This document shows positions 23,103-26,596 of a DNA stretch of 64,000 nt, in pieces. The first letter of the stretch is position 1. Every line of letters starts with the position of its first letter. A program made the position numbers and the translations under genes. The stretch covers positions 1,499,914 through 1,563,913 of the forward strand of contig NZ_CP023018.1 of NCBI RefSeq assembly GCF_022406875.1, read 5' to 3'. The DNA comes from Ectothiorhodosinus mongolicus (GTDB lineage: Bacteria; Pseudomonadota; Gammaproteobacteria; Ectothiorhodospirales; Ectothiorhodospiraceae). Below the pieces are notes generated by a model. That model was not told where the DNA came from. It saw nothing but the letters and a program-made list of their open reading frames with translations, and searched no databases.

Positions 23103-23171
23103 TGTCAACCAAAGACGTGCTGTGACGTATTGCTCTATGAAGGTTAGTTCATTCCATCAGGGAGCATTGTC

Positions 23172-23591
23172 ATGAGTGATACAAAGAAACCATACACGCG
23201 ACGTCGCTGGTTATTAACGGGTGCAGCCGGTCTGGTGATTTTGGCCATGGGCGTCAGTTTGCCGATGAGTGCTTTGGCACAAGACCGCGGTATGCCGCGC
23301 AATGAGCCGGGTCTGACCCTAGAAGAGCGGGCGCAGATGCGGGAAAATCGGCGCATTGAGCGCGAAGATCGCCAACGAATGCGCGATGAGCGGCGTTCCA
23401 TGCGCAAAGATTACTGCCCTGCACTGGAACAGATGAGTGAGGCCGAGCGTGATGCTTGGCGTCAGGAGATGCGGACTCAGCGTCAGCGTATGATGCGCAT
23501 GAATCCCTCTGAGCGGCAGCGCATGCGGGAGCAGATGATGAATAGGACTCCGGGTGAATGCGTTGAGTGGTGGCGACAGCAGGGTGAATGA
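23172..23591 (+). CDS. Periplasmic Met/Arg/Glu-rich small protein (DUF3106/Spy-like)
   Basis: A 139-residue protein with a twin-arginine-like N-terminus (TRRRWLLTGAAGLVILAM) and a signal peptide cleaved near SALA-QD. The mature part is almost entirely charged helix with recurring blocks (ERAQMRENRRIEREDRQRMR, NPSERQRMREQMM) and two Cys. This resembles the LTxxQ/DUF3106-type periplasmic proteins that respond to envelope or metal stress. The gene overlaps the following sigma-factor gene and is part of a four-gene set. Function is inferred from composition and context only. Confidence 0.65.
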   Translation: MSDTKKPYTRRRWLLTGAAGLVILAMGVSLPMSALAQDRGMPRNEPGLTLEERAQMRENRRIEREDRQRMRDERRSMRKDYCPALEQMSEAERDAWRQEMRTQRQRMMRMNPSERQRMREQMMNRTPGECVEWWRQQGE

Positions 23592-24126
23592 TAGTTCCTC
23601 GGCGGACCTGGAGGGGTTTTTCCTCCAGGTCCAGGGGAGGGCAGTGACGATGGCGGCAATGGCAGTGGGTGACCGTGAAACAGCGCTGGATTTGGTGCAA
23701 GACACCATGGTGCGTTTACTGGGTTCGTACCGACAGTATCAACCCGATGCTTGGCCGCCGTTGTTTTGGAAAATCCTGCAAAACGTGATTCGCGATACCT
23801 ATCGTCGGCGCCGCGTGCGTCAGCGGATTATGGCTTTTTTTCCGGCAAGGGATGGTGAGGAAGATCCCGACCCGCTTGCCGGGCTGGCTGATGAGCACTC
23901 ACCTCAGCCGGATGGGGCGCTAAGTGACGCGCGTTTTTCAGCAGATTTGCAGCGTGCTCTACAAGCTCTACCACTGCGCCAGCAGCAGGCGTTTTTACTG
24001 CGCCATTGGGAAGGTTTGGATACTTCAGAAACCGCTGCAGCACTCGGTATCAGCGAGGGCAGCGTCAAAACCCACTTATCGCGGGCGATGGCGGTGCTGC
24101 GCGAGCGCTTGGAGGCACATCAATGA
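23584..24126 (+). CDS. ECF-type RNA polymerase sigma factor
   Basis: This 180-residue sigma-70 family protein has region 2 (AVGDRETALDLVQDTMVRLL, then WPPLFWKILQNVIRDTYRRR) and region 4 (LPLRQQQAFLLRHWEGLDTS, then ETAAALGISEGSVKTHLSRA). It is related to the Pseudomonas/Xanthomonas sigma factors encoded with DUF3619 and DUF3106 genes. The GTG at 23584 overlaps the previous gene; a shorter start at about 23644 is possible. The following membrane protein gene overlaps by four bases and probably encodes its cognate regulator. Confidence 0.85.
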   Translation: MNDSSSADLEGFFLQVQGRAVTMAAMAVGDRETALDLVQDTMVRLLGSYRQYQPDAWPPLFWKILQNVIRDTYRRRRVRQRIMAFFPARDGEEDPDPLAGLADEHSPQPDGALSDARFSADLQRALQALPLRQQQAFLLRHWEGLDTSETAAALGISEGSVKTHLSRAMAVLRERLEAHQ

Positions 24127-24503
24127 ATCCGCAAGACAAGACAATCGATTCGGCCTTGCTGGCGCGGATGCGCGAAACGCTGGATGTGCTGCCCGGTCTG
24201 AGCCTGGCTGAACAGCAGCGCTTGCAGCAGGCCCGCCAAGCTGCTGTCCATGGCTCGGGGAAAGCACCATCACGCTGGCGTTTGCCGCTGTGGCGGCCCA
24301 TGGGCGCCGTAGCTTTAGCGGCTTCTGTCATGTTGGCCGTGGTGTTGATCTGGGATGTGGGCAATGGCCTGGGACCAGAGGGTCTGCCGGCGCTAGCAGT
24401 AGATGGCGCTGAGGTCGAGTGGCTGCTGGCGGGTGATGAGGCTGACTGGCTGTCTGTGGCTGATGATGTGGCTTTTGTCTTTTGGGCAACGCAGGGAATC
24501 TGA
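24123..24503 (+). CDS. DUF3619-like single-pass membrane protein, probable sigma regulator
   Basis: A 126-residue protein with an N-terminal cytoplasmic helix region (LLARMRETLDVLPGLSLAEQ), one transmembrane segment (PMGAVALAASVMLAVVLIWD) and a short acidic periplasmic tail. This is the size and layout of DUF3619, which follows ECF sigma genes. An anti-sigma role is inferred from the overlap (ATGA) and topology, as it has no zinc-binding HxxxCxxC motif. It overlaps the next gene by one base. Confidence 0.7.
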   Translation: MNPQDKTIDSALLARMRETLDVLPGLSLAEQQRLQQARQAAVHGSGKAPSRWRLPLWRPMGAVALAASVMLAVVLIWDVGNGLGPEGLPALAVDGAEVEWLLAGDEADWLSVADDVAFVFWATQGI

Positions 24504-24961
24504 TGAATTTGAGAGCAATCACCGTGACCACTTTGGCATTGCTGATGCTGGCTCAGCCGCTGGCAGCGCAGGTCAACTCCTGGGGTGAACTCAGCCCTGA
24601 ACAGCAACAGGTGCTGGCGCCGATGGCCGGGCACTGGGAAGGTTTGCGCCCCGGGCAGCGGCAGCGGCTGGTGGAGGCCGCAAACCAATGGCCCGAGATG
24701 GACGAGCAGCAGCGCTCACGCTTGATGGCGCGCATGGAACGTTTCGCGCAAATGCCGCCCGAGGAGCGCGGTCGTCTGCGCGAGCGTGCCCGACACTATG
24801 AAACCCTCAGTCCAGAGGCGCGCGAGGCTGTGCGCGAGCGCTGGCAGCGCTTTGAATCCCTGCCGCCGGAAGAACAACAGCGTCTGCGCCGCGAATGGCA
24901 AGAGCGCATGCAATCAGGTCATGAGGGGCGACGTGGTCAGCGGCGGGGCGAAGGCCTATAA
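24503..24961 (+). CDS. DUF3106 periplasmic protein
   Basis: A 152-residue protein with a signal peptide (ITVTTLALLMLAQPLAAQ). The mature region is built of tandem repeats of the type W..L.PEQQ..L.P.A..WE.L.P.QRQRL (WGELSPEQQQVLAPMAGHWE; MPPEERGRLRERARHYETLS), which is DUF3106. It ends in a basic tail, EGRRGQRRG. It is the last gene of the sigma/anti-sigma set. A promoter for prfC lies inside its 3' end, and the TATAAT overlaps its stop codon. Confidence 0.8.
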   Translation: MNLRAITVTTLALLMLAQPLAAQVNSWGELSPEQQQVLAPMAGHWEGLRPGQRQRLVEAANQWPEMDEQQRSRLMARMERFAQMPPEERGRLRERARHYETLSPEAREAVRERWQRFESLPPEEQQRLRREWQERMQSGHEGRRGQRRGEGL

Positions 24962-24994: not shown

Positions 24995-26596
24995 ATGCCA
25001 TCCAAGCACGCCACAGAGACCGCCCGTCGCCGCACCTTTGCGATCATCTCGCATCCTGATGCTGGGAAGACCACGGTCACCGAAAAACTTCTGCTGTACG
25101 GCGGTGCTATCCAGTTGGCCGGAACGGTTAAAGGCCGCAAGGCGGCGCGACATGCCACTTCTGACTGGATGGAGCTGGAAAAAGAACGCGGTATATCCGT
25201 GACCTCCTCGGTGATGCAGTTTCCTTACAAGGACTGCATCGTTAATCTGCTGGATACTCCTGGTCACCAAGACTTCTCAGAGGATACCTACCGGACGCTG
25301 ACTGCGGTGGACTCGGCGTTGATGGTGATCGATGTGGCCAAAGGCGTGGAGGAGCGCACCATCAAGCTGATGGAGGTCTGCCGGCTGCGCGATACGCCCA
25401 TCATGACCTTTATTAACAAGCTCGATCGTGAGGGTCGCGAGCCCATTGATCTGCTCGATGAAGTCGAGCGCGTGCTGGGTATCGCTTGTGCGCCGGTGAC
25501 CTGGCCTATTGGTATGGGTAAACGATTTAAAGGGGTCTATCACTTGGCTCGTGATGCGGTGCATCTGTTTAGCCCCACCCATGGCGGCAAGGTGCAGCAG
25601 GGCGAGATCATTCAGGGATTGGATAATCCTCGGTTGGATGAAGTCTTGGGTACCCAGGCCGCTGAGCTGCGCGAAGAACTCGAGCTGGTGATGGGCGCCT
25701 CCCATAGCTTTGATGCCGAGGCCTATTTGGCTGGACAGCAAACACCGGTGTTTTTCGGCTCGGCCATCAACAATTTCGGTATTCAGGAATTGCTGGATGA
25801 TTTTGTGGTGTACGCGCCCGCGCCTCGCTCGCGCGCGACGCAAAGTCGCGAGATATTGCCTGCAGAAGAATCATTTTCGGGCTTCGTATTTAAGATTCAG
25901 GCGAATATGGATCCGCAGCACCGGGATCGTATCGCCTTTATGCGCATTTGCTCGGGCACCTTCCGCAAGGGAGCCAAACTGCGGCATGTACGCATCGCTA
26001 GAGATGTGCGCATTGCGGATGCCCTGACCTTTATGGCCTCAGAGCGTGAGCATGCCGAAGAAGCTTATCCCGGCGACATCATTGGGCTGCACAATCACGG
26101 CACAATTCGCATTGGCGACACATTTACCGAAGGCGAGGCTTTGGCGTTTACCGGTATTCCGAACTTTGCCCCGGAGCTGTTTCGCCGCGCCCAGTTGCGC
26201 GACCCGCTGAAAATGAAGCAGCTGCAAAAGGGCTTGCAGCAGCTGTGCGAGGAGGGCGCCACGCAGTTGTTTAAACCGCTGACCAACAACGACCTGATAC
26301 TCGGCGCCGTGGGTATTTTGCAGTTTGATGTGGTGGCCCACCGGCTGCGCCATGAATATAACGTCGATGCCAGTTTTGAGACGGTGAACGTGCAGACGGC
26401 TCGCTGGGTGAGTTGCGCTGATGAGCGCAAACTGGAAGAGTTTCGGGAGAAGGCGGCGGCTAACCTGTCCATCGATCATGGCGGCGACTTAGTGTACATC
26501 GCTCCGACCCGGGTTAATCTGCAAATGGCTCAGGAGCGCTGGCCTGAGATTACCTTCAGTGCCACTCGTGAGCATGGCATCGCCGTGGCTGCTTGA
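24995..26596 (+). CDS. prfC: Peptide chain release factor 3
   Basis: A 533-residue GTPase. It has G1 [17 protein letters not shown]2 around [15 protein letters not shown]3 [17 protein letters not shown] and G4 TFINKLDRE, then domain II and the C-terminal domain ([11 protein letters not shown]). RF3 removes RF1 or RF2 from the ribosome after termination. The ATG at 24995 has no clear Shine-Dalgarno, so initiation may depend on the short leader. Confidence 0.97.

Follow-up and report, generated by a model that had tools for sequence, protein, structure and literature searches.

The window (the whole stretch of 64,000 nucleotides of DNA that was analysed) carries four overlapping genes on its plus strand, preceded by a predicted promoter and followed by a release factor 3-like gene that lies outside the unit and that, by name, is presumably prfC (Table 1). 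Four overlapping frames spanning 23172-24961 had been described in the original prediction, and each was recovered in its predicted position. The P0001 and P0002 genes overlap by 38 nt, the P0002 and P0003 genes by 4 nt (ATGA), and the P0003 and P0004 genes by 1 nt, while an in-frame GTG at 23584, equally good as a P0002 start as the GTG at 23554, would shorten the first overlap to 8 nt. A release factor 3-like homologue is found 3' of the operon in all seven Ectothiorhodospira loci (L031-L037; the match in L036 is partial). A PADLOC scan of the locus gave no match.

Table 1. Positions of the operon genes, the predicted promoter and the downstream neighbour in the window
Feature	Position	Strand	Description
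Predicted sigma-dependent operon promoter	23104-23129	+	-35 GTCAAC at 23104-23109, 16-base spacer, -10 CGTA(TT) from 23126
P0001 gene	23172-23591	+	139 aa periplasmic R/E/M-rich helical protein; diverged DUF3106 paralogue
P0002 gene	23554-24126	+	ECF sigma factor, NF006550 (PRK09047) family, SigAb homologue; GTG start
P0003 gene	24123-24503	+	126 aa single-pass membrane protein; predicted anti-sigma factor, AabA homologue, DUF3619-type family
P0004 gene	24503-24961	+	152 aa periplasmic DUF3106 protein, AabB homologue
Release factor 3-like gene	24995-26596	+	Downstream neighbour, outside the unit

P0002 scored 200.6 bits against the NCBIfam model NF006550 (cut-off 173), and its sequence matches in the PDB include CnrH. 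Its identity is 38-41% to 11 Acinetobacter-like sequences and 19% to E. coli RpoE. Signal peptides and the single membrane helix of the other proteins were assigned by reading and hydropathy. P0001 and P0004 each consist of a hydrophobic leader followed by R/E-rich helices, and helices were also present in the structural models of P0001 and of a P0004 relative.

The zinc-binding anti-sigma (ZAS) motif is HxxxCxxC. P0003 contains no cysteine and thus lacks a zinc anti-sigma motif, in agreement with the earlier expectation that the classical form would be missing. Pfam assigned no family to P0003, which gave no hit and stayed below the cut-off of DUF3619 (PF12279). By contrast, 57 of the 76 members of the P0003-family alignment match DUF3619 at E <= 0.1 (best 2.3e-6), so the DUF3619 name originally given to P0003 fits its family but not its own score. 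Its matches in NCBIfam were all sub-threshold, one of them being to an anti-sigma model (14.7 bits against a cut-off of 100), and comparison of the P0003 family with solved structures returned no relative, the one row at E 0.9 being attributed to chance. The first ~50 residues of P0003 hold a conserved helix (LD....RL..AR..AL), and the periplasmic tail of ~45 residues contains a helix as well, with a majority consensus of LYQNLDFYxWLA in the family that is diverged in the window's genus. A chain in which the tail reads through into DUF3106 (L064) was modelled with a pTM of 0.60; its tail helix (residues 34-49, block pLDDT 76-86) stands between poorly modelled linkers. By analogy with AabA of Acinetobacter (see below), P0003 is likely an anti-sigma factor.

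Conservation of the three-gene core and the operon promoter

Named loci were gathered by sigma factor similarity, and the best 80 of 211 were compared. A P0003-family member follows the sigma gene in 79 of these 80 loci and DUF3106 lies downstream in 77, with the remaining three (L056, L088 and L091) running out of sequence; the order sigma factor, P0003-type protein, DUF3106 protein is thus kept in all 77 homologous loci that are long enough to show it. At 71 of 80 membrane-protein starts, the window's included, there is a 4-nt overlap with the end of the sigma gene, as counted by a script that takes the start nearest the sigma stop. In Dyella silvatica (L090, 4535), the membrane-protein frame opens immediately beyond the sigma stop without a change of reading frame, and it is ~13 N-terminal residues shorter than that of L072. 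A small extra protein is encoded between the membrane-protein and DUF3106 genes in 15 of the 80 loci. This protein (L039, L041, L042, L044, L057, L070 and others) is ~75 aa long and exported-looking, with a motif like LLEYLAEFGE..G..DP reminiscent of the helix in the membrane protein's periplasmic tail, and the three copies scanned had no Pfam match.

The same association was observed when DUF3106 was taken as the starting point. Among 58 relatives, DUF3106 exceeded its cut-off in 21 genomes (own genome included), and all 22 distinct over-cut-off loci carry the sigma factor and the membrane protein; the other over-cut-off rows were P0001-type genes of the same operons (L025 and L026) or second pieces (four). 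Many other members of the window's family (genus g3) have no DUF3106 over cut-off. When 249 Pseudomonadota genomes were drawn evenly, 24 carried the sigma family and 25 carried DUF3106; in each of the 24 sigma-bearing genomes the two lie close together on one strand by coordinates, and all 24 loci have a membrane-protein-like frame after the sigma gene. A DUF3106 protein was also seen in a genome from a different class within the phylum, where the sigma factor had no match at E 1e-30 (L232, G194:C33:122732-123040), and second, partial DUF3106 matches occur elsewhere in four genomes of family f13 (L235-L238 in G383, G244, G401 and G248).

A promoter of the form GTCAAC-N15..18-CGT was found 5' of the operon in 75 of the best 80 of 211 loci, 73 of them with a 16-base spacer, when 450 bases upstream were searched (1300 in Ectothiorhodospira). 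In 100 rounds of shuffled upstream regions the pattern appeared in a mean of 0.71 of 80 loci and a maximum of 4. It was missing from the searched region at L038, L045, L056, L074 and L078. Among the 75 promoter-bearing loci, CGT is followed by T in 68 and by A in 7. Scanning the window with GTCAAC-N15..18-CGT[TA] gave one plus-strand match, the operon site GTCAAC(23104)-N16-CGTA, and two on the minus strand (60602 and 39800), both with 18-base spacers. Within the 249-genome draw, the promoter lies within 450 bases in 8 of 24 loci, while the window's own site is beyond 450 bases because the P0001 gene intervenes; one further locus is without it, and 14 others form a classic DUF3619-type clade in which no promoter was found within 450 bases (0/14) and simple enumeration revealed no shared upstream motif. 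Promoter conservation predicts that the operon would be autoregulated in much of the family.

With the conserved order and the promoter, a four-gene unit such as this appears far from what chance would produce. The proposal that the four genes form one unit with an order kept among homologous loci was upheld; the first gene is a lineage-specific addition to the three-gene core.

Sites away from the operon were searched with strict patterns of this kind. The 2-Mb genome contains 35 exact matches to GTCAAC-N15..18-CGT against 58 for a reversed-pattern control, indicating no excess. By a rough test, 27 of the 30 such matches with a locus lie inside frames of at least 80 aa on either strand; the other three are the operon site, one overlapping an apparent gene start (L134) and one with no frame downstream (L136). 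A candidate target site before an SspA-like gene was rejected, as it lies inside a reverse-strand frame and has no counterpart before the gene in the other 9 genomes of the genus. GTCAACC-N15-CGT matched 35 times in the genus, and reading covered 23 loci outside the operon; the matches recurring in several genomes sit in frames, and two in G004 (L173 and L190) are not clearly coding. Finally, GTCAAC-N16-CGTAT has 15 matches in 10 genus genomes, at the operon in all 10 and at five off-operon positions in one genome each, including one (L293, G004 only) located 26 bases 5' of a 500-aa frame. With these strict patterns no second target site is kept genus-wide, and the operon promoter is the sole site common to all 10 genomes. 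The genome of the window (G000) is complete at 1.995 Mb compared with 2.6-3.8 Mb for nine genus relatives, possibly reflecting genome reduction.

The first gene and the DUF3106 family

P0004 is a clear DUF3106 protein (PF11304 in Pfam, 107.5 bits, cut-off 24.3, E 5.8e-31). P0001 by itself had no Pfam hit up to E 1, the DUF3106 cut-off not being reached, and is 24-34% identical to the 12 other proteins of its alignment. Within the P0001-type family, 4 of 13 members match DUF3106 at E <= 0.1 (best 9.7e-6), and two homologues from the window's genus exceed the DUF3106 cut-off. Profile comparison of the 13-member P0001-type alignment with DUF3106 gave 98.1% and a score of 87.0, against a maximum of 25.9 in 30 column shuffles; with the leader removed, the score was 73.2 and the shuffle maximum 12.9 (30 shuffles). 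Given this profile relation and its failure to reach the cut-off itself, we regard P0001 as a diverged paralogue and not as a member of DUF3106. HMG_box_2, which Pfam listed for 5 of 13 P0001-type proteins (best 0.0066), was set aside as helix composition. Judged by these profiles, P0001 and P0004 are paralogues, one on each side of the sigma/anti-sigma pair. The two charge-rich periplasmic proteins of the original prediction were correctly recognized by their leaders and R/E-rich helices, but that description was incomplete in that both derive from one family.

The position of the P0001-type gene is constant within the lineage. It lies between the promoter and the sigma gene in all eight Ectothiorhodospira loci read fully (the window included), and all 5 genomes of another genus in the window's family are arranged alike. 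The distance from promoter to sigma domain is accordingly large, at 639-870 bases in seven Ectothiorhodospira loci and 498 in the window, compared with 95-277 bases in the 68 other promoter-bearing loci among the best 80 of 211. By promoter position, first-gene placement extends across the window's genus (10/10 genomes), and eight of these 10 have a DUF3106-like profile match upstream of the sigma gene. That an operon in the window's family starts with a diverged DUF3106 paralogue looks to be a new point.

AlphaFold modelling of mature P0001 from a shallow alignment gave four main helices (block pLDDT 80-98 past residue 50, pTM 0.44). PDB fold comparison of this model and of that of the P0004 relative yielded no usable match, and neither P0001 nor P0004 matches a metal-sensor family (Spy/CpxP, CnrX) in Pfam. 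Mature P0001 (103 residues, cleavage assumed) contains 12 Met, 2 Cys and no His, a Met count whose probability is 7e-6 at an assumed background of 2.4%. Its homologues in the other genus contain 10.0-10.6% His and 7.4-11.0% Met, with runs like GHHGHMMMA, and the DUF3106 proteins of that genus begin with His-rich stretches. In the seven remaining Ectothiorhodospira homologues Met makes up 3.6-7.5% and His is scarce, and P0004 is not rich in His. The composition of the P0001-type proteins points to a possible metal signal. The P0001 leader (23172-23280) has a twin-arginine-like RRRWLL ahead of its hydrophobic stretch, an element not present in the leaders of the other genus.

Relation to SigAb-AabA-AabB and a proposed mechanism

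In Acinetobacter, overlapping genes for a sigma factor (SigAb, cited as WP_000362312.1), a single-pass protein of 107 aa (AabA) and a protein of the periplasm (AabB) have been reported as the SigAb-AabA-AabB system (PMC12153292, 2025). In that study, overproduction of AabA and of AabB reduced SigAb activity, the cytoplasmic portion of AabA was inhibitory by itself, and copper raised SigAb activity ~2.5-3.5-fold (PMC12153292). Autoregulation of the operon acts through a promoter made up of -35 GTCAAC, 17 bases and -10 CGTT, and relA and an sRNA (SabS) are among the direct targets (PMC12153292). The authors' model of AabA bound to the sigma factor is CnrY-like, with tail binding modelled too; they leave the precise mechanisms of AabA and AabB open and describe the system as Acinetobacter-specific (PMC12153292). 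As far as can be judged from its sequence, the core of the window's operon is a homologue of SigAb-AabA-AabB. The mechanism had originally been thought undescribed; with a homologous unit in print, that view no longer stands in full (PMC12153292). Among open-licence papers (CC0, CC BY or CC BY-SA), none mentioning DUF3106 or DUF3619 was found, and nothing closer than SigAb.

We then drew 99 genomes of the Moraxellaceae (the family of G058), of which 50 have the sigma factor over cut-off, and examined the best 30 loci. DUF3106 was detected downstream by profile in 30 of 30, the promoter in 24 and the membrane protein in 23, with weak membrane-protein matches in Acinetobacter-like loci. Fourteen of the 30 fit the details of SigAb available in print, having a 17-base spacer and CGTT (14/14) and a four-T run (11/14), and all 14 exceed the NF006550 cut-off; the membrane proteins of the 13 that were read are 105-110 aa long (107 in the report), and the third gene is DUF3106-like. 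From these features we infer that the Acinetobacter-like loci are sigAb. The window's own site, with its spacer of 16 and CGTA, was counted as SigAb-type (GTCAAC, 16-17 bases, CGTT), the last base differing. Scanning two Acinetobacter-like genomes for the promoter listed 27 sites, among which no relA site was recognized. At L277 and L280 (G130 and G136), a SigAb-type promoter with an AT-rich upstream stretch precedes a conserved locus that has no long frame and ends in a terminator-like hairpin, probably the SabS RNA. An identical promoter-like match followed by conserved frame-free sequence was also seen in both genomes at L274 and L289 (G136 and G130).

In a tree of 62 sigma factors with a very distant outgroup, the 11 Acinetobacter-like sequences form one clade on a long branch (1.19), which joins two other Moraxellaceae rows (96/82) inside a 20-row group (100/99), while four other Moraxellaceae rows are placed elsewhere. 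SigAb hence looks like one rapidly evolving branch within a broader family, a further new point, which suggests that the switch reported as Acinetobacter-specific belongs to a family found across Gammaproteobacteria; its fast divergence could be why an orthologue search did not recover the other members.

Taken together, we consider it quite probable that the unit is an autoregulated ECF sigma/anti-sigma operon of the SigAb-AabA-AabB kind. Starting from the observed gene order, protein families, promoter conservation and paralogy, we infer the following scheme. The N-terminal ~50 residues of P0003 would keep the sigma factor bound at the membrane, in line with the AabA measurements and the CnrY-like model, an anti-sigma action carried over from the SigAb experiments. 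P0004 probably binds the periplasmic tail helix of P0003 and would steady the inhibited state. A periplasmic signal, perhaps a metal or envelope protein stress, would alter the complex and free the sigma factor, which would then act at the GTCAAC-N16-CGTA promoter to transcribe its own operon. P0001, as the second DUF3106-type protein and the first on the same transcript, is probably a feedback or ligand-binding partner. Periplasmic stress sensing by the unit, as put forward in the original prediction, is plausible.

The main rival is regulated proteolysis of the RseA type, in which P0003 would be cut by a site-1 and then a site-2 protease and P0004 would act as RseB, making the unit an RpoE-like switch for unfolded proteins, not metals. 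The layout of sigma factor, single-pass protein and periplasmic partner is that of rpoE-rseA-rseB in E. coli, and an RpoE-like model is discussed in the SigAb report (PMC12153292). However, none of the four proteins has RseA or RseB among its listed Pfam or NCBIfam matches, the periplasmic tail of P0003 is just ~45 residues long, and the related SigAb promoter and direct targets are described there as unlike those of RpoE (PMC12153292); we regard such proteolysis as possible but unlikely here.

Alternatively, the unit might mainly make periplasmic chaperone or metal-buffer proteins, with P0001 and P0004 as its outputs and no contact between P0004 and P0003. Since the operon promoter is the one strict-motif site that the 10 genus genomes share, conserved products other than the switch would be limited to the periplasmic proteins, and the His/Met-rich stretches of the other genus are consistent with such a role. 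The kept-site result applies to the strict motif, however; DUF3106 accompanies the sigma/membrane pair almost always, beyond what mere output requires; and AabB by itself lowers SigAb activity (PMC12153292), leaving this second alternative doubtful. That the four genes are a chance tandem, with P0001 separate from and unrelated to the switch, is highly improbable, for although P0001 lacks a Pfam match and shows low identity within its alignment, its gene stands between promoter and sigma gene in every fully read Ectothiorhodospira and other-genus locus and is paralogous to DUF3106.

Returning to the SigAb-like operon, one could imagine a widespread self-contained sigma circuit with its own operon as the sole conserved direct target and the DUF3106-type proteins as both sensor and output, in which Ectothiorhodospira and another genus duplicated the partner to the first position, where it gained Met/His and built a metal-buffering feedback loop around the anti-sigma factor; we offer this extension tentatively, as a rather unlikely one. 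As an anti-sigma operon the unit is ordinary, and its usefulness lies in the link of DUF3106/DUF3619 to SigAb, the shared promoter and the duplicated periplasmic partner. Two uncharacterised Pfam families are now tied to an experimentally studied sigma/anti-sigma system, the shared promoter extends predicted autoregulation over much of the family, and AabB function becomes approachable in harmless hosts, by setting lineages that have a single protein of this type against those that have two.

Comparison with known systems

The unit resembles RpoE-RseA-RseB in overall layout and compartments but differs in sigma identity (19% to E. coli RpoE), in its promoter and in having no RseA or RseB among the listed matches. 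CnrX is the small periplasmic protein of CnrYXH. To this system of Cupriavidus metallidurans the unit is similar in combining a short single-pass anti-sigma factor with a small periplasmic protein, and at most it would work like CnrYXH, whereas the P0003 family has no sequence relation to any solved chain and P0001 and P0004 have no metal-sensor match. The 14 classic DUF3619-type partner loci (L239-L250, L252 and L255) share the three-gene core and the 4-nt overlap, but show no GTCAAC promoter within 450 bases and have a membrane-protein tail motif like DDLPPxAYxDxGFxxFL. By comparison with SigAb-AabA-AabB, the window's operon has a fourth, promoter-proximal DUF3106 paralogue, a spacer of 16 instead of 17 bases, a -10 of CGTA instead of CGTT, a strongly diverged membrane-protein tail and, in its genus under strict patterns, no second kept target. 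Despite these differences, the two have in common the same sigma family, a short single-pass partner, a DUF3106-type partner, overlapping genes and a GTCAAC/CGT operon promoter.
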